64,000 bases of DNA. Source: Fodinibius salsisoli. Its GTDB lineage: Bacteria; Bacteroidota; Rhodothermia; Balneolales; Balneolaceae. A program made the position numbers and the translations under genes. Under the pieces are notes generated by a model. It had not been told where the DNA came from, searched no databases, and saw only the letters and a list, made by a program, of their open reading frames with translations. Location of the stretch: NCBI RefSeq assembly GCF_026229185.1, contig NZ_JAGGJA010000001.1, positions 186,001-250,000 of the forward strand, given 5' to 3'. Below are positions 16,278-31,085 of the stretch, one piece after another; position 1 is the first letter of the stretch, and the number at the start of each line of letters is the position of its first letter.

Positions 16278-16501
16278 AATGCCCTTCCAAAAAATTTAGA
16301 GATAAAATATTATTGTTGTAGCCGCATTATTTTTATACTCGGGATACCTGATTTGTTCCGGGATATATTAGAATTATTTAATGAATGTTAAATTTTGTAG
16401 TACTCCCATCCACCTTCTCAGCATTTAAACCTTATCTTTTTGATACTTAACCCAATGAGCCTTTTGGGGATAGCAAATTATTGAAACAAACTTTTGTAGA
16501 C

Positions 16502-17047
16502 ATGAATAAAGCTTTTTTCTTAGATCGCGACGGTACCATCAATGTGGATTATAATTTTGTTCATACCCCGGAAGAGTGGACGTGGTGCGACGGAGCGATA
16601 GAAGCCTTACAATGGATGCAAGCAGAAAACTTTAAAATTATCGTCGTTACTAATCAATCGGGAATTGCTCGCGGGCGATATACCAAAGATCATGTACAGT
16701 CTTTACACCAATGGGTGGATCAAGAATTACACGCCCATAAGGTGACTATCGATGGCTGGTATTATGCCCCGCACCATCCAGAGCATGACACCGACGGCCT
16801 GTATGCCCCGGAAGACCGCAAGCCCGGCATCGGAATGTTTGAGAAGGCCGCCCAAAAGCACCAAATTGATTTCAGCCAGTCTTATATGGCCGGAGATAAG
16901 ATCACAGACCTAAAACCAGCCATTACCCTGGGCATGCAGCCCTTTTTCATTCGCTCACGGCATGAACCCAAGCAGGATAAATCCTGGCTTCAAGAGCATG
17001 GGCTATCTACTTACGACAATATCAAAGAGGTGGTAGAGACTCTGTGA
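16502..17047 (+). CDS. HAD-IIIA phosphatase, GmhB-like (heptose bisphosphate phosphatase family)
   Basis: The 181-aa protein has the HAD motifs: LDRDGT (nucleophile Asp8, acid Asp10), VVTNQSG (motif II), the Lys of DRKPGIGMFEKA and AGDKITDL (motif IV). It looks like GmhB, which removes the 7-phosphate of D-glycero-D-manno-heptose 1,7-bisphosphate for lipopolysaccharide. The zinc-knuckle cysteines of typical GmhB are missing (YYAPHHPE and LYAPEDRKPG stand where Cys-X-His and Cys-X-Cys are expected), so the substrate may differ. ATG 16502 is chosen over TTG 16481 because it puts the nucleophile at the usual depth. Confidence 0.8.
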   Translation: MNKAFFLDRDGTINVDYNFVHTPEEWTWCDGAIEALQWMQAENFKIIVVTNQSGIARGRYTKDHVQSLHQWVDQELHAHKVTIDGWYYAPHHPEHDTDGLYAPEDRKPGIGMFEKAAQKHQIDFSQSYMAGDKITDLKPAITLGMQPFFIRSRHEPKQDKSWLQEHGLSTYDNIKEVVETL

Positions 17048-17270: not shown

Positions 17271-18221
17271 TTAGCCGATGAATCCGAGCACCGACTGCGG
17301 TCCGTTATTGGCCTGCGCCAGTGCTGAGGTCGCCGTCTGCTGCAAGATCTGCAGTCGTACAGATTCACTTTGTGCCTTCGCAAAGTCCGTGTCCATGATA
17401 CGAGACTTCGCTGATTCATTCGCACTGATCGACTCCGAAAGCGTCTGCTCTCGTACCGACAGTGACGACTGCGTAATACCAATGTCATTTACGTTATTCG
17501 ACATTGTCGTTATTGCATCGTCAACATTACTAATAAAACGACGATATGCTGTAGCGTCGGCAACAGTATTATTAAAGTTCAATGATCCGCCAGCTGTTGA
17601 TGAAGCAGCGCCTACAGTAATTGCCGATGTAGCATTACTATTAGTAATATCTGTTCCAGAACCAAACAATGCATCAACATTCACGGCATTAATCGTGGCC
17701 GTAATGGTATCTTCTGCTCGTTCTCCCACTTGAAACTCAAGACTCAATGAACCAGTTTTTGTGGCAGCAGCTGAAGTATTATGACCTCCATTCAACAGCT
17801 CGTAATCCTGATAGACCGTCTGATCAGCAATCTTATTGATATCATTTCCAAGGGCTTCAATCTGATCTCCGATAAATCCCCGCTCTTCATCGCCCAGTGT
17901 ATCGTTGGCTGCCTGTGTGGCCAAGCCTTTCATTTCTACCAGGTTATCCATCACCGTTCCATAACTGGATTCGGTAATATCGAGCACCGACTTTGCATCA
18001 CCGACGTTCTGCATTGCCTGGTTGAGCCCGCCAACGCGACTGCGCAGCTTCGTTGCAATCGAAAACCCAGCAGAATCGTCTTCGGCACGGTTAATCCGCT
18101 TACCGGTAGACATCTTCATCTGGTTCTCGGCCATCTGCTTGTTTACCTGGTTCAGCGACAGCTGGGAGTCCAGGGACTGTATGTTTGTATTTACTCTGTT
18201 TAAATCTCCAAAACTTGCCAT
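17271..18221 (-). CDS. fliC: Flagellin (copy 1)
   Basis: This is the filament subunit, exported by the flagellar type III system. The 316-aa protein has the conserved N-terminal D0/D1 region (residues 1-140, including LSLNQVNKQMAENQMKMSTG and RINRAEDDSAGFSIATKL) and the C-terminal D1/D0 region (about 240-316, ending QANNGPQSVLGFIG). The middle is short (about 100 residues, Ser/Thr/Ala-rich), so there are no large D2/D3 domains; those Ser/Thr could be glycosylated. It is almost identical to copy 2 at both ends and differs in the middle. A sigma28-type promoter lies 55-80 bp upstream and a terminator follows. Confidence 0.96.
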   Translation of the reverse strand: MASFGDLNRVNTNIQSLDSQLSLNQVNKQMAENQMKMSTGKRINRAEDDSAGFSIATKLRSRVGGLNQAMQNVGDAKSVLDITESSYGTVMDNLVEMKGLATQAANDTLGDEERGFIGDQIEALGNDINKIADQTVYQDYELLNGGHNTSAAATKTGSLSLEFQVGERAEDTITATINAVNVDALFGSGTDITNSNATSAITVGAASSTAGGSLNFNNTVADATAYRRFISNVDDAITTMSNNVNDIGITQSSLSVREQTLSESISANESAKSRIMDTDFAKAQSESVRLQILQQTATSALAQANNGPQSVLGFIG

Positions 18222-18341
18222 AATGTATTCTTTTTTTGTTGCAAATAAATTGTTGACTACCTGCGTCTGTAGTGGTTATCGTTGCCCGGCAGCCGTTCTT
18301 AAATATTTTTTTAATTTTCTTTTGGAGCCAAAGATCTACAC
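17971..18341. repeat. 371-bp direct repeat, copy A (flagellin 1)
   Basis: The first 251 bp of the coding region plus 120 bp of upstream DNA match 19364-19734 base for base as far as I can read, at an offset of 1393. The rest of the two genes carries many silent and amino-acid changes. Confidence 0.88.
18276..18301 (-). promoter_or_regulatory. Sigma28 (FliA)-type promoter of flagellin 1
   Basis: On the minus strand TAAG, 16 nt, then CGATAA. This is close to the sigma28 pattern TAAA-N15-GCCGATAA with a spacer one base shorter. The same spacing recurs at three other flagellar genes in this window. It leaves a leader of roughly 45-50 nt. Confidence 0.75.
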
Positions 18342-18578
18342 TGATTATTACTGACACACATCCCACCTTACCGAAAATACTATTGAACATAATTGAAGGT
18401 GCTGTCAAAATCATCTATCAGAATTGGTTTATAAAAGTAGAGCGAGATTTATCTCACTTACTCAAAATAAATTTCGAGCTACCACCTTGCTGTAGTCTTG
18501 ATACCTAATCATAAACTATTCCGTAAAATTCTGCTCTACCCGTATCATCAGTCTTCTATTATTCCCCTAACATAAAAA

Positions 18579-18608
18579 AGCCACACTACCCTGAAGGTAG
18601 CATGGCTT
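18579..18608. terminator. Terminator of the second flagellin gene
   Basis: AAGCCACACTACC and GGTAGCATGGCTT pair with one mismatch. On the minus strand a T-rich run follows. The stretch between this and copy A of the repeat (18342-18578) shows nothing recognisable. Confidence 0.85.
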
Positions 18609-18654
18609 TGTATTCCTTCTCTGGCTATAGGCCAGAATATCTTGGCTGCTATAA

Positions 18655-19614
18655 TTATCCGCCAATAAATCCGAGTACCGACTGTGGACCGTTATTGGCC
18701 TGTGCCAGTGCCGAGGTCGCCGTCTGCTGCAAGATCTGCAGGCGGACCGACTCACTTTGGGCCTTTGCAAAGTCGGTATCCATAATACGAGACTTCGCCG
18801 ATTCGTTGGCACTTACCGATTCCGAAAGCGTCTGCTCACGTACCGACAGCGATGACTGGGTAATACCAATATCGTTTACGTTATTCGACATTTCCGTGAT
18901 CGCACTGTCTACTGCACCAATAAAGGAACGATAATCTGCAGAAGTAGCATTAGTATTATTAATATTTAATGCCCCCCCATTATCAGTTGCCGCAGTTGCC
19001 GCAGAAATTGCAGTTCCAGAAGCATTTGTAATAGAAAGATTGCCTCCTGCTGTATTAAATAATGCATCAACATTCACGGCATTAATCGTGGCCGTAATGG
19101 TATCTTCTGCTCGTTCTCCCACTTGAAACTCAAGACTCAACGAACCCACTTTTGAATTTGCAGAAGTAGCATTATGATCGCCATTCAACAGCTCATAGTC
19201 TTGGTACACCGTCTGGTCGGCAATATTGTTAATATCTTCGCCCAGGGCTTCCAGCTGATCCCCGATAAATCCCCGCTCTTCATCTCCCAGCGTATCGTTG
19301 GCTGCCTGTGTGGCCAAACCTTTCATTTCCACCAGGTTATCCATAATCGTACCATAGCTGGACTCGGTAATATCGAGCACCGACTTTGCATCACCGACGT
19401 TCTGCATTGCCTGGTTGAGCCCGCCAACGCGACTGCGCAGCTTCGTTGCAATCGAAAACCCAGCAGAATCGTCTTCGGCACGGTTAATCCGCTTACCGGT
19501 AGACATCTTCATCTGGTTCTCGGCCATCTGCTTGTTTACCTGGTTCAGCGACAGCTGGGAGTCCAGGGACTGTATGTTTGTATTTACTCTGTTTAAATCT
19601 CCAAAACTTGCCAT
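18655..19614 (-). CDS. Flagellin (copy 2)
   Basis: The 319-aa filament subunit is a close paralogue of copy 1. The N-terminal 100 residues and the last 75 are nearly identical, and the centre (about residues 150-230, LFNTAGGNLSITNASGTAIS) differs. Both copies keep the hydrophobic ends needed for export and polymerisation. It has its own sigma28-type promoter and terminator, so the two are separate transcription units and could be expressed together or vary in ratio. The large glycosyltransferase-like gene lies just upstream at 20292-24719. Confidence 0.96.
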   Translation of the reverse strand: MASFGDLNRVNTNIQSLDSQLSLNQVNKQMAENQMKMSTGKRINRAEDDSAGFSIATKLRSRVGGLNQAMQNVGDAKSVLDITESSYGTIMDNLVEMKGLATQAANDTLGDEERGFIGDQLEALGEDINNIADQTVYQDYELLNGDHNATSANSKVGSLSLEFQVGERAEDTITATINAVNVDALFNTAGGNLSITNASGTAISAATAATDNGGALNINNTNATSADYRSFIGAVDSAITEMSNNVNDIGITQSSLSVREQTLSESVSANESAKSRIMDTDFAKAQSESVRLQILQQTATSALAQANNGPQSVLGFIGG

Positions 19615-19734
19615 AATGTATTCTTTTTTTGTTGCAAATAAATTGTTGACTACCTGCGTCTGTAGTGGTTATCGTTGCCCGGCAGCCGTTCTTAAATATT
19701 TTTTTAATTTTCTTTTGGAGCCAAAGATCTACAC
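19364..19734. repeat. 371-bp direct repeat, copy B (flagellin 2)
   Basis: Second copy of the block at 17971-18341, covering the 5' coding part and the promoter region of flagellin 2. Sequence on either side diverges abruptly. Confidence 0.88.
19669..19694 (-). promoter_or_regulatory. Sigma28 (FliA)-type promoter of flagellin 2
   Basis: Same TAAG-N16-CGATAA element as before flagellin 1, carried within the shared 371-bp block. Confidence 0.75.
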
Positions 19735-20095
19735 AGATTACAGCTGATAAATAAGCAGTCATTGCTCAGGTAGGAGACTTATCGACCGACGTAATCTCCT
19801 TGACATAGCTCGCAAGTGCACCGAAATGCCACACTTCGCTCAATACATTCGTTCGTTGCAATGACGGGTATTGCCCCCCCCATTAACTCTATAGCAATGC
19901 CCCAGGGCTATTATACTAATTATTCTGAACCAGCTTTTTAAAAAGCGCTACACAACCAAGGTCTCATACTTTTCTACGGCCTCTTCACTAAGGAGCTTAG
20001 ACATCGCGAACAGTGGCTTTGTAATTTTCAAAAGTTAGTACTCAAGTTAACCTGTTTTCTAATTCATAGCTTAGGAATTAATTCCGTACCATCTT
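19735..20095. other. Intergenic stretch with a REP-like element
   Basis: No gene is visible. Within 19769-19871 the minus strand reads like the common bacterial intergenic repeat that starts CGTCATTGC, passes GAGCGAAG and ends near GGAGATTACG. The rest, toward the sulfotransferase remnant, is plain AT-rich sequence with stops in all frames. A short minus-strand frame at about 20009-19953 (starting MSKLLSEEAVEKYETL) may be a relic of a longer gene. Confidence 0.4.
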
Positions 20096-20299
20096 TTAGC
20101 TAATCTTGAAGTTTCGGCCTATGAGTAAAATAGAACTATTAGCTACTCCCAAATGGCTTTTTGACCTGTCTTTACGGCCTTGATAACCGGGATAACGAAA
20201 CCCCTGTCGATCAAGGGCTTCATCATTTGTAAAAAATGTTTCCTGAATAGAGGTTGTGCCGATTTTATAAGAACCGATATGTAAATGCAATTTATTCAC
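20096..20299 (-). pseudogene. Truncated sulfotransferase-like remnant
   Basis: The 67-aa frame starts at 20299, overlapping the end of the large TPR gene by 8 bp. Its N-terminus, LHLHIGSYKIGTTSIQ, is the PAPS-binding P-loop and first strand of sulfotransferase-family proteins, and DRQGFRYPGYQG fits the next segment. These enzymes usually have 250 residues or more; this one stops after 67 and no clear continuation follows. It is therefore probably a broken gene that once followed the glycosyltransferase-like gene in an operon. The P-loop Thr of the usual KTGTTS is Ile here. Confidence 0.6.
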
Positions 20300-23200
20300 T
20301 GAGTAGCTGTTTATTAATATACTTTACTGTTCCTACTCCCCCTAAACCGGGTACTTCGGCATCATAAATGCAAAAGTCATCCAACAACTCATCAATATCA
20401 CGACGATCTTCCTCTGAATGATACTCAAGCATTATTATTTTTGTATCTACTAATAATTCTTCCATCCCCTTAAGAATAGGTATTTCTGCCCCTTCCGTAT
20501 CAATTTTTAGCACATCGATTCCTTTTATTCCTTTCTCTTTCAATGCTTCACTGGCCTTCTTTACTTCAACATTGACTTCATTTGCCCCGGGAACTTTGTG
20601 AGATGTAGTTGTCGCACCCGTATTATATGGATGCTGAAATAATGTGAGTTCACCCTCACTTTCACCTAAAGCACAAAACTCTGTTGTTACCCTCGCTATA
20701 TTTTCAGTATTAGCTTTAAGCATGGATCTAACCAATGGATTCGGCTCAAAACAATATATATCAGCCAATTGGTTCCACTGCCTTGCATAAAGAGCAAAAG
20801 CCCCAATATTCGCTCCGATATCAACAATCACTGCGTTATCTTGCAATCCATAATTTCCCGGCAATGAATATTCATGATCATCAAAAATATTCCGCAACCG
20901 AAACAGCTCTTTCTCAGGAATTCTAAATTTGGTGGTTCTTCCACCACCTAAATAGTCATAATTTAATGATACTTCAATAACTTGAGAAGGCGTATTATCT
21001 TCAGCATTTACTGTTTCTCCTTTGGTAATGCCTTTTTGTTCTTCTGCTATTCTATTCCAAAACCATCCATTTCTTCCTTTCCAATTTATTTTGGAAATTC
21101 CATCTTTTTCACCATTCAATCGTTTTATAAGGAGTATTCTCTTCTCAACTTTATTCAAAATTTCAGGATTATCTTCCAAGGCCTTTAACATTTGCTGCTC
21201 CTCTTTACTACTTTCATGAGTAGTATCATTTTTTAGCATTATCCATGCCTCCACCACCCGCACCGTCAACCAATTTGGAAATGTAGTTTTAACAACGGTT
21301 TGGTCTTGCTCGGGTAGTGGCGGCAAAAATGGAAGTTGTACAGAAATATCTTTTCCTGAATTAACTGTTTCCATCAGCTGCTTCATCATTTCCATAGCCT
21401 GTCTTTGCTTTCCCAGCTGACTCATTACACGTACGTAGGTCAGGGCAGCTGCAATACCAGCCTGTCCACTGTTGAACAACCCAATTAACTTTTGAGCAGC
21501 AGTAAGCATCATCGCTCCTTTGCGTGATCTTGATTTTGAATCCTTTTCTGAAATCTCTATTTGCTCAGCAGTACAAACCAAGTTCAGTGCTTTTATATAT
21601 TCTTCATTAGTGCCAGCCAATACCTTGTCAGCCCATTCATCAATTTTATGTTCAGCCCAAGGCTGGCTTTCCAGCATCTGCTTCCATCTGTGTTGATCAG
21701 TGGCCTCTAAATTTACATCCTCATCAAAAATCCACCCGGCCTCTTTAAACTCTTGCACCCTGTCTTCAGCAATTGCAACCAAATTCATCCGGTAAGGATC
21801 GATGCCCGTTTCGGAGTCGTACTCAGCCAACACACCGGGACCGGGGATATACTCATACAATCTATAGTCCTGTTGTAAAAAATCTTCTTGTAGTTTGTCA
21901 AGACAACCTTCACTGTTCTCGGCAGAAGCAATCACTACAGGCTTAACCCCAGCCAACATTTCTGAAGCCCCTTTCAATACATCAGCCTCCATACCGTTAA
22001 CATCAACCTTAATCATTTCCACTTCTGGTTGACCCGCAAAATTCCACCAGCCATCAAGCGTGGTTACACTAATTTTTTGCTCTCCCTCTTTACTCACCTG
22101 GTTCAGCTCCGGCGACTCTCCTTCCTTAAAAGAAAGGCTCCCTGTCTTAGAAGACACCCCACGACCAATAACCTCCAATTGGCTTAATTTGTTTTCCAGC
22201 TTACTTTTCTCCAGGTAACTCCGACTTCTGGCTGAAGGTTCAAAGGCAGTAATCATACCCTTTTTCCCTACTGCTTTTGCCATGGATAAAGCATAACCAC
22301 CAAAACAGGCCCCTACATCCAAAGCATACATCCCCGGCTGCAAATACGACTGCACAAAATCCAGCTCAGGCTCAAACCATTCCTCTTTTTCCAAAAAGAC
22401 ATACGTTGATAATACCTCCAAGTCTGCTGGTACAATAATTGAGAGGTCGCCTTTTATTTCTATCGTATGCTGTTCCTCCTCTTTATCTGTTTCTGCTGCG
22501 AAAGAATGAACCTTGTTTTCTTCCCCACCACTATCCTGTTCTGGCGTTAAAAGAGGCATTTCTTCTGGCCCATCAGTTAACGCCTTTACTTTCGCTGGGG
22601 TTAGAGGTTCAATATTGATTTTTTGCTGCCAGTTATTAGTATCATTTTTATGCCCTTCAACCCATTGCTTCCACATTTCTCGAAAGGCAACTGACAAATG
22701 AGCTCCAAAACGTTTTCCATCACAAACGGGAGAATTACGTATTTTCTTTCTTAGTTGTTTCCGTTCTTGTGCTAACCTCTTACAATCTTGAGCTAAAGCG
22801 ACCGTTTTTTCAATATATTCATCCCAATTATCTGCGACCCAATTACCTAAGCCAGCATTCATTAAATGAGTTGCGGAATGGCGACCCGCAAAAGTAGGGC
22901 CCGGCATCGTTATGACCGGCACCCCCATATAAAGGGCTTCGCAGGTCGTGAGACCACCTGAGTAGGGCCAGGGATCAAGGGCAATATCAATTTTATTATA
23001 TTCATTTAAGTGATTGGTATGTGAGGTTTGCCCTTCAAATAGTAATCGCTCTTTTTCTATACCCTGATCTGCAAACATGTTGATTACCCTCTCCCGAAAA
23101 GAAGCCGTATCATATTGTTTGCTTTTTAAGTAGAGCTTACTGTTTCCAACTCTTAACATGGCTTTGGCCCACTGTTCAATAATCTTTTCATTCACTTTCG

Positions 23201-24719
23201 TTGGATTATTGAAACAGCCAAAAGTAATGTAGTCATTCTCCAACACAGGTAAATCACCAACCTCAGGAGCATAACCTGGCGGGGTAAAAACAATATAATC
23301 ATCAGGCATACGTACTAACTTTTCAGTATAGTATTGGTCCTCTCCTTCGGGGCTTTCAAACCTATCGGTAATCAGGTAGTCAAAAGCCTCGATACCGGTC
23401 GTATTAAAAAGTCCACCAACCCACTTTACAATAATAGGAGCTGGTTCTCCAGCCATAACATCAAAACTGCTGTGGCTTGCATGCCCAGATAAATCAACCA
23501 GAATATCTATTTCATCATCTCTGATGATCTCTTCCACTACTTTTGAATCATAACCTACAATAGAACGCCACACATCTATATTTTTATGAATACGTCGAGT
23601 TACGAAATCAAATTTATTATCTGCCGTATAACCATAAAGTTCAAACCTCCCAGAGGACAACTGCTCTAAAGCCCCCACTATCATAAAACCAACCGGATGA
23701 CGCTTAAAGCTTCCTGAAACAAACCCGACCTTTAATTTCTTATTCTTAGATTTGTTTGAAGGCACAGACCTTCCATTCTGATTAAACTTTTTAAACCTTT
23801 CTCCTAACCTAACATGTTCTTCAAAAATGTATTCCCTTTCATTTTGGGGATTATAATGTAGTCCCATGAGGTAGTTTGAAATGGGATTCGTATGGTCAGG
23901 CAGCAGTTCAATAGCATGCCTGTAATTTTTTTCCGATTCATCAAACCGCCCCACCTCTTGTAAACAAATGGCATAGTTTACGTATAATAATCCATTCTCC
24001 GCTCCATCCCGGACCAACTCTTCATATATAGAAATAGCCCTATCATAATCTCCTTTTCCTTTACAAATTTCTGCTAATGCTACATCCGCTGCCGTACTAC
24101 TGCCATATTTTTCTTTAGCTTCATTGATTAGCTCTTCTGCCTTCTCAAGCCTTCTTGTATCTTTGTAAACATCTGCCTTTCCCAAAAAAGCCTTGCAATG
24201 ATCCTCATCCACTTCTAAGGCATAGTCAAATAATTTGTGAGCCTGCTTAAAGTCTCCTAAATCCTTATAAATATTTCCGATATGATATGCTACATCCGCA
24301 TTTTTGGGATCTAACTTGTTAACTTTTTTATAACAACGTAATGCCTCCTCAAGTTTTGCTTGTTCCCGATAAACTTTTGCCAGATTTAGCCAAGCCTCTA
24401 AAAAACTGGACTTCATTGATACAGCTTCCTGACCATATTTTTCTGCTTCATTATATTTGCCAAGATTATAATAGTTTACAGAAAGCATATGATACGTCTC
24501 AGGCTGATCCGAATCATAATTTACTGCCTCAGCTAAATGATTGGCTGAACTTTCATGCTCGCCTTTGAGTGACAAAGCAATACCCATCATATGATGGGGC
24601 AACCATGCAAACTCCTTTTGGATTTGGTCACTATCTAAGGTCGGCTTCAATTCAGCAATCGCCTGATCCGGCTTTTGCCACTCTAAATATTTTTGGGCTT
24701 GCTTGATCTTTTTCTGCAA
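20292..24719 (-). CDS. TPR - OGT-like (GT41) - FkbM - FkbM multidomain protein, probable flagellin modification enzyme
   Basis: The 1475-aa protein joins four units. Residues 1-290 are about eight TPR repeats (for example AEKYGQEAVSMKSSFLEAWL). Residues 327-690 match the C-terminal catalytic half of O-linked GlcNAc transferases (GT41): VGFVSGSFKRHPVGF with the candidate His341, DILVDLSGHASHSSFD, ALDPWPYSGGLTTCEAL and AGRHSATHLMNAGL. Residues about 755-985 are an FkbM-type methyltransferase (LDVGACFGGYA, IKVDVNGMEADVLKG). After a helical region of unknown kind (about 990-1240), residues 1245-1475 form a second FkbM unit (VDIGANIGAFAL, LKIDTEGAEIPILKG). It lies just upstream of the flagellins on the same strand, so O-glycosylation of flagellin Ser/Thr and methylation of the sugar is a reasoned guess. 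No signal peptide: cytoplasmic. Confidence 0.85.
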   Translation of the reverse strand: MQKKIKQAQKYLEWQKPDQAIAELKPTLDSDQIQKEFAWLPHHMMGIALSLKGEHESSANHLAEAVNYDSDQPETYHMLSVNYYNLGKYNEAEKYGQEAVSMKSSFLEAWLNLAKVYREQAKLEEALRCYKKVNKLDPKNADVAYHIGNIYKDLGDFKQAHKLFDYALEVDEDHCKAFLGKADVYKDTRRLEKAEELINEAKEKYGSSTAADVALAEICKGKGDYDRAISIYEELVRDGAENGLLYVNYAICLQEVGRFDESEKNYRHAIELLPDHTNPISNYLMGLHYNPQNEREYIFEEHVRLGERFKKFNQNGRSVPSNKSKNKKLKVGFVSGSFKRHPVGFMIVGALEQLSSGRFELYGYTADNKFDFVTRRIHKNIDVWRSIVGYDSKVVEEIIRDDEIDILVDLSGHASHSSFDVMAGEPAPIIVKWVGGLFNTTGIEAFDYLITDRFESPEGEDQYYTEKLVRMPDDYIVFTPPGYAPEVGDLPVLENDYITFGCFNNPTKVNEKIIEQWAKAMLRVGNSKLYLKSKQYDTASFRERVINMFADQGIEKERLLFEGQTSHTNHLNEYNKIDIALDPWPYSGGLTTCEALYMGVPVITMPGPTFAGRHSATHLMNAGLGNWVADNWDEYIEKTVALAQDCKRLAQERKQLRKKIRNSPVCDGKRFGAHLSVAFREMWKQWVEGHKNDTNNWQQKINIEPLTPAKVKALTDGPEEMPLLTPEQDSGGEENKVHSFAAETDKEEEQHTIEIKGDLSIIVPADLEVLSTYVFLEKEEWFEPELDFVQSYLQPGMYALDVGACFGGYALSMAKAVGKKGMITAFEPSARSRSYLEKSKLENKLSQLEVIGRGVSSKTGSLSFKEGESPELNQVSKEGEQKISVTTLDGWWNFAGQPEVEMIKVDVNGMEADVLKGASEMLAGVKPVVIASAENSEGCLDKLQEDFLQQDYRLYEYIPGPGVLAEYDSETGIDPYRMNLVAIAEDRVQEFKEAGWIFDEDVNLEATDQHRWKQMLESQPWAEHKIDEWADKVLAGTNEEYIKALNLVCTAEQIEISEKDSKSRSRKGAMMLTAAQKLIGLFNSGQAGIAAALTYVRVMSQLGKQRQAMEMMKQLMETVNSGKDISVQLPFLPPLPEQDQTVVKTTFPNWLTVRVVEAWIMLKNDTTHESSKEEQQMLKALEDNPEILNKVEKRILLIKRLNGEKDGISKINWKGRNGWFWNRIAEEQKGITKGETVNAEDNTPSQVIEVSLNYDYLGGGRTTKFRIPEKELFRLRNIFDDHEYSLPGNYGLQDNAVIVDIGANIGAFALYARQWNQLADIYCFEPNPLVRSMLKANTENIARVTTEFCALGESEGELTLFQHPYNTGATTTSHKVPGANEVNVEVKKASEALKEKGIKGIDVLKIDTEGAEIPILKGMEELLVDTKIIMLEYHSEEDRRDIDELLDDFCIYDAEVPGLGGVGTVKYINKQLLSE

Positions 24720-25321: not shown

Positions 25322-25642
25322 ATGCAGAATCCACAACAGGTTTATCAGCAACAAGCGGTCATGAATGCATCGCCGCTGCAGCTGGTCGTAAAATTATATG
25401 ACCTTCTGCTACAGGCGACCTACCGTAAAGATCAAAACCGAGTACGCGAAGTGTTAAATACACTTACCGAAAGCCTTAATTTTGATCACGAACCTGCCGA
25501 AGAGCTTTTTCAACTTTACCAGTATTGCCAGGATTTAGCCCGCGATGAAAACTATGAGGAGATTCGTGAAGTGCTGGAACCCTTGCGTGATGCCTGGGAA
25601 CAAGCGGCCAAAGGGAAAACCGGAGAGCAGGCAGCCGGCTAA
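25322..25642 (+). CDS. fliS: Flagellin export chaperone FliS
   Basis: FliS binds unfolded flagellin in the cytoplasm and delivers it to the export gate. The 106-aa sequence has the family N-terminus (VYQQQAVMNASPLQLVVKLYDLLL; the ASP-x-QL-V---YD core is diagnostic) and is all-helical. It is somewhat shorter than the usual 125-135 residues. It opens a sigma28-driven operon with fliD and the two small genes behind it. Confidence 0.85.
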   Translation: MQNPQQVYQQQAVMNASPLQLVVKLYDLLLQATYRKDQNRVREVLNTLTESLNFDHEPAEELFQLYQYCQDLARDENYEEIREVLEPLRDAWEQAAKGKTGEQAAG

Positions 25643-25687: not shown

Positions 25688-27097
25688 ATGAATTCTATTA
25701 GTAACCTAATACAATCATCAAACCCCTATTCACAATTTGTTGATCAGCTGGTACTGCTCGAAAGTCAAAAAAAGTTCCGGCTTGAAGATCAGCAAAGTCA
25801 ACTGAATGATAAGCAATCTGCCCTAAGTAAAGTTAGTTCTGTCATTTCTGATTTTACTTCTCAGGTTGATGAATTAACCAGTAATACATCCGATAGCTTC
25901 AACCCGCTTACCTCTTCTTCCAGTAATGAAGAGGCCATTCGAGTGGATTCCATATCAGGGTTAAAAGATCCCAATACCTATGATATATCGGTAAGCCGCA
26001 AAGCCAGTAAAGATATCATGCTCTCGAATGTGATGGATGGTACGGCTACCAACCTCGCGGGCAGCGGAGATGGATCTGTAGACATTACGATTGGGGATAA
26101 GACAGAAACCATATCCATTTCAGCCACTAATGGGGACGGCACAGACAAAACGAATAAAGAAATTTTAGAATCGTTTTCCACCGCTATCAATGATATGCTG
26201 GGAGAAGAGTCTGACAGCGATGTTTTTGAAATAGATAATGATGGAAATGTTCAACTATCAGTAAAGAGTGCCCAAACCGGTTATGATGAGCGTGTGCAAT
26301 TTGCCAATGCCACTGGAGCTTTGACTGATATCACTAACAACATGGGTCACAAAGTTGTGGATGACGGCGGCACGCTAAATGATCTTGATGCTGAATTTAC
26401 GGTTGATGGCATCACCTTTACTCGCGGGGAAAATACGGTAGATGATGCAATATCAGGGATGACTTTTTCACTTCTGGGCTCTACAACAGAGCAAGAACAG
26501 ATCACTATTGATAAAGATGTTGAAACGGCTGACAGTAATATTGATGATTTCATTAGCAAATTCAATGAAATGAACAAACAGATCCGCCAGCAAACTTTTA
26601 TTAATGGCGAAACGGGGAATAAGGGTCCGTTGCAAGATATGCGTTCTATTCGCAACCTGACCATTAATTTGCGCCAAACGGCACTTACTGATATGGCTTC
26701 TGCCGGAGCTGATGAATTCAACAACCTTTCTGAAATTGGTATTGGGTTTGAAAACAATGGAAATATGAAGGTGGAAGATTCCGAATTACTAAAAGAGGCC
26801 TTGACAGAAAGGCCAAATGAGGTAAAAAACCTGTTTACCAATGATGATTCACCGGTCACCAAGATGTATGAACGAGCTAATACATTTACCGAAACGGGCG
26901 GTACTATTTCATCACTGGAAAGTGGACTGGACCAAAAAATAGATTTTCTTGGTAATCGTATAGAATCAGAGAGTAAATACCTGGAAAAGTATGAAGAACG
27001 CCAGCGCGAAACGTTTGCCGAAATTTATCAAATGCAACAAGAAGGCCAGCGCCAACTTAACGCCGTAATGAGTCAACAATCTTCGTTAGGACTGTAA
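25688..27097 (+). CDS. fliD: Flagellar filament cap protein FliD
   Basis: FliD forms the cap on the filament tip and guides flagellin folding. The 469-aa protein has the FliD N-terminal helix region (about 1-110, including NPYSQFVDQLVLLESQKKFR) and the C-terminal region (about 230-465, with IDDFISKFNEMNKQIRQQT and LEKYEERQRETFAEIYQMQ). The central part carries a flagellin-hook-IN-like segment (about 60-120). Length is typical. It lies 46 bp after fliS in the same operon. Confidence 0.92.
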   Translation: MNSISNLIQSSNPYSQFVDQLVLLESQKKFRLEDQQSQLNDKQSALSKVSSVISDFTSQVDELTSNTSDSFNPLTSSSSNEEAIRVDSISGLKDPNTYDISVSRKASKDIMLSNVMDGTATNLAGSGDGSVDITIGDKTETISISATNGDGTDKTNKEILESFSTAINDMLGEESDSDVFEIDNDGNVQLSVKSAQTGYDERVQFANATGALTDITNNMGHKVVDDGGTLNDLDAEFTVDGITFTRGENTVDDAISGMTFSLLGSTTEQEQITIDKDVETADSNIDDFISKFNEMNKQIRQQTFINGETGNKGPLQDMRSIRNLTINLRQTALTDMASAGADEFNNLSEIGIGFENNGNMKVEDSELLKEALTERPNEVKNLFTNDDSPVTKMYERANTFTETGGTISSLESGLDQKIDFLGNRIESESKYLEKYEERQRETFAEIYQMQQEGQRQLNAVMSQQSSLGL

Positions 27098-29732: not shown

Positions 29733-31085
29733 CTAAATAATATTTGCGACCATTTTTTTTGCTTGTTCCAACCTGTTCGTTTTGGTGAGCGATACTATAA
29801 GCTTGCGCTTATATACCTGGTCCCCGGGGTGTGCATCATATAGCTTTTTATAAACAGTAGAGACATAACCATACCAATTCTGTGTCATAAAAAGAGTCAT
29901 CACTTCATCAATTTCTTCCCTTATACCTTCCTCCATCTCATTCGGCGGCAACTGGTCTCCAAACATCTGTTCAAACAGATATGTCGACCGCTCAAAATCA
30001 TCTAACTCAATGGAAAGCATCAAGGCTTTTTCCAGCATCGCTCGATCGCTGTTTCCACGTTTAAACGTAAAGAGCTTATCAAAATACTCGTTAGCTTTGG
30101 CACGGCGACCAGCTTTGAGTGCTACATTAGCCAGGTTTACAAAGGTCTTTTCTTCATCAATTTTTCGGTCAAAACTGGCTCCAGAAAATAGCGCCAGTCG
30201 ATCGTAATATTGCTTAAGTACCTCAAAGGCTCGTTGCCACTGTTTACGCAATTCGTGGATACGAAACTGTATCAGATAGGGTAATCGCTGCAATGATTCG
30301 GCTTCGAGCGACTGCGTACATAGTGATAATGCCCTTTCCCACTTATGCTGCTCCGCCAAGCAGCTGGCCAACCCATTTACGGCCGCCAATCGATCAAAGG
30401 GCAAGAGTTTCTCTTGTTTCAGCAACTGACGAAACTGAGCGGAGGCCCGCACATACTTTTTTGCTTTCAGGTATCTATTTCCCTGTACCAGGTATAGCTT
30501 GGGAGCCTGTTTTTTCAACGAAAGTTCTTCTTCGATATCAATATGTGAATATAGACTTGTGTCTCGTTCAATAATAATTGGCTTGCTACTCAAATTGATC
30601 TTGTTAGAACGCACAAACTCCGTAGCATCTGCTAACTGATGGCCTTGGAAAATATGCCCCTCATCCATCGATACGTTTACCAAGCGCATCTGATAGTAAT
30701 GATGCGTGGTACTGTTCCTTTGAATATTGATAATAGCCGGAGCCCACTCTGTTTTATCTAAACTCTGCGCATTCGGAAAACTGCTGAACTGAAGCTGTTC
30801 ATCATCCTCTAAAAAAAGTGCCCAAGAACCAGTAACCTTTTCGGTGATAGTATTCCATACTTTTGAACGACTACTTTCAGCGTCATATTGATACCACCGT
30901 ACCCCCTCCGGCAAGCTTTGAGGAGCTTCTCCCTTTCCCGCAACAATCAACTCAGAAAAATATCCTTGCCACTGCCGAAGCTTCTTGGTGTTATAAAATG
31001 CTGAATCAGAAAGAAAAAGTACGCCTGTTAGCCAATCTGACCTTGTATTCTCTCCATCTGATATTGATGAGATCCCCGATTCCAT
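29733..31085 (-). CDS. Glycosyltransferase-like (degenerate GT2) N-terminus with TPR repeats
   Basis: The 450-aa protein has two parts. Residues about 15-110 follow the outline of GT2 enzymes: a first strand (WLTGVLFLSDSAFYN), a variable stretch, then TEKVTGSWALFLEDDEQLQF, which mirrors the A-x-G-DW-ILFLDADE element of TPR-linked GT2 transferases. Residues about 185-450 are TPR-like helical pairs (KLYLVQGNRYLKAKKYVRAS and others). The N-terminal part is short and lacks a clear nucleotide-sugar signature, so it may be catalytically weak or only a binding module. Being beside flgL and near the OGT-like gene, a role in flagellin handling or glycosylation is possible. A good AGAGG site precedes the ATG. 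Confidence 0.55.
   Translation of the reverse strand: MESGISSISDGENTRSDWLTGVLFLSDSAFYNTKKLRQWQGYFSELIVAGKGEAPQSLPEGVRWYQYDAESSRSKVWNTITEKVTGSWALFLEDDEQLQFSSFPNAQSLDKTEWAPAIINIQRNSTTHHYYQMRLVNVSMDEGHIFQGHQLADATEFVRSNKINLSSKPIIIERDTSLYSHIDIEEELSLKKQAPKLYLVQGNRYLKAKKYVRASAQFRQLLKQEKLLPFDRLAAVNGLASCLAEQHKWERALSLCTQSLEAESLQRLPYLIQFRIHELRKQWQRAFEVLKQYYDRLALFSGASFDRKIDEEKTFVNLANVALKAGRRAKANEYFDKLFTFKRGNSDRAMLEKALMLSIELDDFERSTYLFEQMFGDQLPPNEMEEGIREEIDEVMTLFMTQNWYGYVSTVYKKLYDAHPGDQVYKRKLIVSLTKTNRLEQAKKMVANII

Follow-up and report, generated by a model that had tools for sequence, protein, structure and literature searches.

A GT41 protein with two FkbM modules at a flagellin locus of Fodinibius salsisoli: a putative flagellin-modifying enzyme with an exchangeable C-terminal tail

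What would a single protein combining tetratricopeptide repeats (TPRs), a glycosyltransferase family 41 (GT41) domain, and two FkbM methyltransferase units do next to flagellin genes? The question is raised by a gene of Fodinibius salsisoli (Balneolales), which lies at 20292..24719 on the reverse strand of the window, the 64,000-nucleotide stretch analyzed here (contig NZ_JAGGJA010000001.1, positions 186,001 to 250,000). The initial annotation proposed that the encoded 1475-residue protein both glycosylates and methylates flagellin. The link to flagellin is supported by gene order and co-occurrence, while the two reactions are suggested by the domains, since GT41 and FkbM are fused in one chain. 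We consider it likely that the protein is a cytoplasmic flagellin-modifying enzyme, in which the TPRs would bind the substrate, GT41 would transfer a sugar, FkbM would methylate, and the C-terminal tail would act as a cassette.

The motifs quoted in the initial annotation are all present in the translation of 20292..24719 (−): HPVGF with His341, DPWPYSGG at residues 582–589, RHSATHLMNAGL, LDVGACFGG, and VDIGANIGA. The TPRs, the proposed flagellin-recognition part (approximately residues 40–290; 23850..24602 (−)), match TPR_2, TPR_8, and many other TPR families of Pfam. The GT41 catalytic domain (residues 291–700; 22620..23849 (−)) scores 136.7 bits with PF13844 (Glyco_transf_41; curated cutoff, 25). 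Methyltransf_21 scores 110.7 bits over two stretches, and each unit scored alone exceeds the cutoff of TIGR01444 in NCBIfam (37.7 bits): FkbM1 (residues 761–965; 21825..22439 (−)) gives 72.9 bits and FkbM2 (residues 1240–1475; 20295..21002 (−)) gives 102 bits. The two FkbM units are separate, as had been read from the motifs. The open reading frame (ORF) starts with TTG, which is plausible since the first start codon of several orthologues (e.g. L035, L041, L042, and L043; L numbers denote loci) falls at the same place. The orthologue in the closest genome (L034) is colinear, with 81% identity over residues 1–1475, and the ratio of nonsynonymous to synonymous differences (pN/pS) between the two is low in all five modules (TPR, 0.12; GT41, 0.12; FkbM1, 0.21; the hinge between the FkbM units, 0.27; FkbM2, 0.14), so the chain is real and its modules are kept. 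Omega is 0.055–0.118 in the four modules with estimable synonymous divergence (dS), roughly, because dS is near or above 1. The GT41 part has no second match elsewhere in the genome of F. salsisoli. The MptE-like family PF01973, which we take to be the Maf-type flagellin glycosyltransferase domain, gave no match in that genome and is not among the best 25 of the 39 Pfam families matched by the protein.

The part of the chain from the TPRs to the hinge is mostly constant, and the tail after approximately residue 1220 has been swapped among closely related species. Tail types were assigned to 33 proteins, the window protein included, by Pfam scans of 20 tails and module searches. FkbM1-hinge-FkbM2 is found in six. 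Four have FkbM1-hinge-GT1/4-like (that of L051 is below the cutoff and cut by a contig end), four GT2 + GT1/4-like, three GT2 + methyltransferase, and three GT56, with FkbM1 being weak in L047 and L048. FkbM2 directly follows GT41, with no FkbM1, in four (L053 and L057–L059). The others are methyltransferase + kinase-like (two), APH-kinase-like + methyltransferase (one), APH-like only (one), without a tail (two), or cut by contig ends (three). The methyltransferases of L036, L038, and L056 and the second glycosyltransferase of L039 were assigned by eye or by likeness to sister proteins, not by Pfam, as was the GT2 of L036, which is 0.2 bits below its cutoff. Approximately ten tail types occur in the lineage, the double FkbM being one of them, and four types are represented among the 10 proteins of the genus of the window. 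On a tree of the constant core (33 rows, a quick method, no shuffled control), the ten states of the 30 labeled rows require 15 changes, against a minimum of 9.

Five pairs were picked for direct comparison. The four pairs with unlike tails are 70.3% identical up to residue 1225 (L042/L043), 74.0% up to residue 1247 (L040/L043), 72.2% up to residue 1206 (L037/L036), and 74.6% up to residue 1226 (L035/L041). Beyond these residues, no collinear match is found in three of them, and only the last glycosyltransferase module matches, at 31%, in the fourth. In the pair with like tails (L042/L040), an identity of 77.6% is sustained to the end.

The high identity is lost at the end of the hinge (residues 992–1206; 21102..21746 (−)), which ends the constant part. 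The initial annotation found no recognized fold at residues 990–1240 and suggested a structure prediction, which has changed this view. The hinge modeled alone with AlphaFold2 consists only of helices, with a mean predicted local distance difference test score (pLDDT) of 88.7; within the unassigned region (approximately residues 990–1205), the TPR-like stretch is predicted at approximately residues 1010–1204, and residues 1206–1240 or so form a linker of lower confidence. VIA-align places the hinge near TPR and other helical-repeat proteins (IFIT1, the Ski3 complex, BamD, and TTC0263) with Z scores up to 10.2, below the level advised for helical repeats (approximately 13), and Foldseek gave no match for the hinge alone at E ≤ 0.001. 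The model is therefore suggestive of a TPR-like helical domain, where "TPR-like" denotes an arrangement and not a family assignment. Residues 745–1475 were modeled together with 23 aligned homologues (mean pLDDT, 86.5), and the best Foldseek match of this whole tail, FkbM1 included, is an FkbM methyltransferase (2py6, E 3.5e-7). Tail alignment A3 was used for folding, an earlier alignment (A1) having been set aside since its rows with FkbM2 only seemed misaligned.

Related modules are also seen in other contexts. A stand-alone 914-residue FkbM-hinge protein without TPR-GT41 is encoded downstream of the main gene in L045 (1277-4021) and L046 (1308-4052), and that of L045 contains Glyco_trans_1_2. 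Beside the short TPR-GT41-FkbM proteins of L053, L057, L058, and L059, stands the gene of a distinct TPR protein, approximately 560 residues long; a GT56 module, unfused there, is matched by Pfam in L053 and presumed from position in L057–L059. In many homologues outside Balneolia (L089–L147), GT41 is followed by a conserved domain of approximately 300 residues that Pfam does not name and that may be a degenerate FkbM; its profile match with FkbM1 is weak (74 columns, probability 27.9).

The link of the gene to flagella is strong. The gene is flanked on one side by two flagellin genes, encoding 319 (18655..19614 (−)) and 316 residues (17271..18221 (−)), each with Flagellin_N and Flagellin_C of Pfam, and on the other side by a divergent pair, fliS (25322..25642 (+); flagellin chaperone, 50.3 bits with Pfam FliS) and fliD (25688..27097 (+); filament cap, FliD_N and FliD_C). 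A glycosyltransferase gene thus stands at a flagellin locus, as in a flagellin glycosylation island. The divergent fliS is found in 30 of the 32 orthologous loci fetched; the gene and fliS are 2.2 kb apart in L039, fliS lies approximately 3.4 kb downstream of the gene instead in L052, and the contig of L064 starts inside the gene. fliD neighbors the gene in the lineage, as do flgL and flgK where the stretch reaches them. Of 116 related genomes scanned, 35 gave a match at E ≤ 1e-30, and 34 were retained as orthologue genomes after removal of G016, which lacks any Flagellin_N match and whose distant 652-residue GT41 protein shows 34% identity. Flagellin_N is matched (E ≤ 1e-12) in all 34 of these and in 21 of the 82 without an orthologue (Fisher p 3.5e-15, uncorrected for relatedness). 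Since FlgL of the window also matches Flagellin_N (5.6e-15), we recounted with a best E below 1e-20, and the proportions became 30/34 versus 17/82 (p 1.0e-11, likewise uncorrected). Flagellin as the target has good support from this gene order and co-occurrence. Not every GT41 protein is flagellar, however, since the stretches of two more distant GT41 loci (L066 and L067, the latter only 3.8 kb) contain no flagellar gene.

The arrangement extends beyond the order. Named genomes gave no match when scanned with the single protein, but a scan with the TPR-GT41 alignment succeeded, and the best 80 of 117 loci were inspected: 24 of Balneolia, many from the same genomes as the lineage set, and 56 others, all chosen by sequence alone. 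All 24 Balneolia loci encode flagellin, FliD, or FliS (11 of them flagellin itself), and 55 of the 56 others contain a flagellin-like gene, defined by more than 30 bits to the flagellins of the window. With L090 moved out of the latter for its Balneolia gene order, 54 of 55 loci contain a flagellin-like gene, within 350 bp in 52, though three of the 54 (L105, L130, and L136) score below 42 bits. The one exception, L138, starts 180 bases from a contig end. Homologues standing consistently away from flagellin genes, an outcome that the initial annotation had considered, are not what these loci show. The hosts are, by their titles, mostly Halomonas-like bacteria, Pseudomonas, Azotobacter, Achromobacter/Bordetella, Microbulbifer, and enterobacteria. 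Their tails also vary: Pfam finds Sulfotransfer_3 in 9 of 54, GT2 in 9, Methyltransf_21 in 6, and GT56 in 5.

These loci bear on the identity of the acceptor. It might be another protein of the flagellar locus, such as FliD, FlgK, or FlgL, or, on the model of O-GlcNAc transferase (OGT) in eukaryotes, an intracellular regulator, as fliS, fliD, flgL, and flgK are also neighbors and no more than 17 of the 32 lineage loci have flagellin within the stretch fetched. Outside the order, however, flagellin is the constant neighbor, lying within 500 bp in 52 of the 55 loci, whereas 18 of them showed FliD or FliS. Such an acceptor is therefore quite unlikely.

The donor site was compared by mapping its residues to Arabidopsis SPINDLY (AtSPY), with residue functions taken from the available parts of PMC10027727 and PMC9715652. 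His495, Lys665, Lys689, Tyr744, and Glu752 of SPY correspond to His341, Lys508, Lys532, Tyr586, and Glu594, which are kept in the window protein and in 32 of 32 orthologues; the first is the active-site His and the second the Lys that binds phosphate. The counts among the 56 GT41 domains of other bacteria are 56, 55, 51, 55, and 56, respectively. The distant proteins of L066 and L067 have His and Asp in place of Tyr586 and Glu594. On the other hand, Ser496, Thr747, and Thr748 of SPY are replaced by Pro, Gly, and Leu in 33 of 33 lineage proteins. Of the three signature residues of the SPY-like clan, Lys689 and Tyr744 are matched by Lys532 and Tyr586, whereas the position of the third, Ala731, is Glu573 in the window protein and varies elsewhere, with Ala in 15 of the 32 orthologues. 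The columns of Leu866, Arg904, and Cys917 of human OGT (hOGT) carry Lys, Glu, and Tyr, so that the OGT/SEC-like signature is absent. Judged from these columns, the predicted donor site differs from that of human OGT and resembles that of SPY only in part; the GT41 domain had been taken for an OGT, and an OGT-like donor site is ruled out by the signature residues. With Lys532, PYSGGLT, and Glu594 as its signature, a GT41 clade emerges that is associated with flagellin loci in both Balneolales and Proteobacteria, and of which no characterized member was found in the literature search. Members of this clade should not be annotated as O-GlcNAc transferases by default.

With the TPR parts counted, AtSPY scores best among solved GT41 proteins (350 bits; TtOGT, 247; hOGT, 215), and, with the equivalents of Lys665, Lys689, Tyr744, and Glu752 conserved, the protein could be a SPINDLY-type protein O-fucosyltransferase that uses GDP-fucose, the methyltransferases acting on the fucose. 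The three invariant replacements argue against this. Moreover, gmd was not matched at E ≤ 1e-60 in the genome of F. salsisoli (98% complete; scores were obtained for 16 of 20 candidates, and GDP-fucose synthase was not searched), nor was the fucose salvage family PF07959, and of the 34 orthologue genomes only 14 contain gmd. GDP-fucose was accordingly rejected as the leading donor, and we regard a SPINDLY-type enzyme as very unlikely. The same genome contains rmlD above the cutoff, a mannose-1-phosphate guanylyltransferase-like gene (353.6 bits, under the 372.95-bit cutoff of the bifunctional model), and, beyond the flagellins, a GmhB-like heptose-bisphosphatase gene (16481-17047 (+); 163.1 of 178 bits, and 147.8 of 149.6 bits, just under, with NCBIfam). 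As these genes are present and no gmd or salvage gene was found, dTDP-rhamnose, GDP-mannose, or a heptose nucleotide would be a better donor candidate than GDP-fucose. The GmhB-like gene beside the flagellins possibly hints at a heptose nucleotide; it has no counterpart in the 32 orthologue stretches. Sugar-pathway genes stand beside the gene in some relatives, rmlA in L035 and a DegT aminotransferase in L041 and L045.

The most likely function, as far as sequence allows, is flagellin O-glycosylation before export with built-in methylation. The N-terminal TPR superhelix would bind flagellin before export, by analogy with FlmG of Caulobacter, and the GT41 domain would attach the first sugar to Ser/Thr of flagellin. 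The FkbM modules, carried on the TPR-like helical hinge, may O-methylate that sugar or its extension. The position after approximately residue 1220 would be a cassette site, taking up FkbM, GT2-like, GT1/4-like, GT56, GT2 + methyltransferase, or kinase-like modules, and the module present would set how the glycan is finished.

Besides the flagellin count in the lineage stretches (17/32), several observations weigh against this function. In L171 (genome G006), flagellin lies further downstream, beyond the fetched stretch. In G010, the 5 kb at the contig start contain no flagellin, and the single Flagellin_N match is of FlgL strength. No sugar-pathway gene lies between the gene and the flagellins in the window, and only the beginning of a downstream frame is kept there. 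The central Ser/Thr content of flagellin is no higher with the gene (0.227) than without it (0.220; p 0.68), and raised Ser/Thr was dropped as a sign of modification. This comparison covered 16 genomes with the gene, whose loci supplied 36 flagellins, and 17 genomes lacking it, which supplied 17; the other loci yielded no usable flagellin. The flagellin ends do differ (0.179 versus 0.162, p 0.0005), probably through lineage composition. Lastly, FkbM1 has DVNGME where FkbM2 has DTEGAE, and therefore one methyltransferase may differ in activity or be inactive.

This last point raises the possibility that the chain is only partly active, FkbM1 and the hinge being a scaffold while GT41 and the tail module act. 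The variant motif D-x-NG-x-E is invariant in FkbM1, and L053 and L057–L059 dispense with FkbM1, as described above, both of which fit a scaffold. However, all 23 rows of alignment A3 share the S-adenosylmethionine (SAM)-loop residues Asp57, Gly59, and Gly63 (numbering of that alignment), and purifying selection acts on FkbM1 (omega 0.118). We regard a scaffold role as rather unlikely, though it deserves serious consideration beside a pair of acting methyltransferases.

Parts of this arrangement have precedents. GT41 proteins are described in enterobacterial flagellin islands, and almost all of them contain methyltransferase domains (De Maayer and Cowan 2016, PMC4875605); the Spy protein of Erwinia flag-3a, with 1127 residues and a methyltransferase domain, is encoded beside fliC (PMC7526173). 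In the accessible parts of both sources, flagellin glycosylation and methylation are predicted for these proteins, which, like the window protein, unite GT41 and a methyltransferase at a flagellin locus. Their methyltransferase domains are of cd02440 or pfam13649, whereas the window protein has two FkbM units and a TPR-like hinge, belongs to a different phylum, and shows a mapped exchange of C-terminal modules. FlmG of Caulobacter crescentus, as described in the part of PMC7591256 at hand, is a cytoplasmic protein in which N-terminal TPRs recognize flagellin and a GT-B glycosyltransferase follows, the same order as in the window protein. It differs in its 596 residues and pseudaminic acid donor, and the term methyltransferase is absent from the main text of that paper. 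SPINDLY, a protein O-fucosyltransferase in the excerpts of PMC10027727 and PMC9715652, shares the TPR-GT41 order and the five kept residues, whereas the window protein has the S496P, T747G, T748L, and A731E replacements, long C-terminal additions, and a genome in which searches found no gmd and no fucose salvage family. GT2 of Clostridioides difficile type B flagellin (PMC5207246, available in part) joins a glycosyltransferase and a methyltransferase (Pfam 08241) in one flagellin-modifying protein; it adds two rhamnoses, and the authors attribute rhamnose methylation to it. Its glycosyltransferase is Pfam 00535 and not GT41, and TPRs are not mentioned in that part. The initial annotation knew of no enzyme with two FkbM units on one GT41 protein. 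That holds in the literature searched, where no double-FkbM GT41 protein, fixed-junction tail exchange, or Balneolales case was found (the search missed most subscription journals), but fusions of GT41 and methyltransferase in flagellin loci are published (PMC4875605 and PMC7526173). Such fusions and a bifunctional flagellin glycosyl/methyltransferase are already known; the double FkbM and the tail exchange appear to be new.

The assembly of flagellin glycans is as a rule divided among several enzymes encoded in variable islands. We tentatively propose, as a possibility short of an even chance, that here a single chain is an assembly line for the flagellin glycan, in which flagellin would be bound, GT41 would start the glycan from a donor other than UDP-GlcNAc and GDP-fucose, methylation would follow, and the C-terminal cassette would be recombined at the end of the hinge, so that members of one genus rewrite their filament surface. 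If so, the system would be comparable to O-antigen switching or modular megasynthases. Much of the glycan variation would then reside in a single protein, at a defined junction, so that diversification could be tested directly by tail swaps, and the protein might serve as a soluble single-chain tool for the O-glycosylation and methylation of proteins.

The remaining observations concern the surroundings of the gene. The downstream remnant (20186..20299 (−), within 20186-20320) has approximately 38 recognizable codons, with 30 of 38 residues identical to the ORF of L034, and no Pfam match. The intact frame directly follows the gene in L034, the closest relative (332 residues), and in L052 (341 residues). 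The P-loop motif of the L034-type ORF recalls sulfotransferases, which we take as a resemblance only, as no library confirmed it; a sulfotransferase was rejected for L034 and L052 since neither ORF has a Pfam sulfotransferase match and that of L034 has no solved relative. The downstream ORF of L042 is Sulfotransfer_2 in Pfam. A sigma-28-like box, GGTCGATAAG, occurs exactly once in the window, before flagellin (19778-19787). None precedes this gene, so a box shared by flagellin and this gene was discarded; with up to one mismatch, the window has 5 matches versus 2.5 expected. By eye, the tandem flagellins (17271-19740) have nearly identical ends and similar upstream stretches, suggesting recent duplication or gene conversion. 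A 450-residue protein with weak TPR matches (29733-31085 (−)), whose N-terminal part resembles a glycosyltransferase by eye only, recurs in 22 of the 32 orthologue loci, between the gene of a sigma-54 regulator and flgL.

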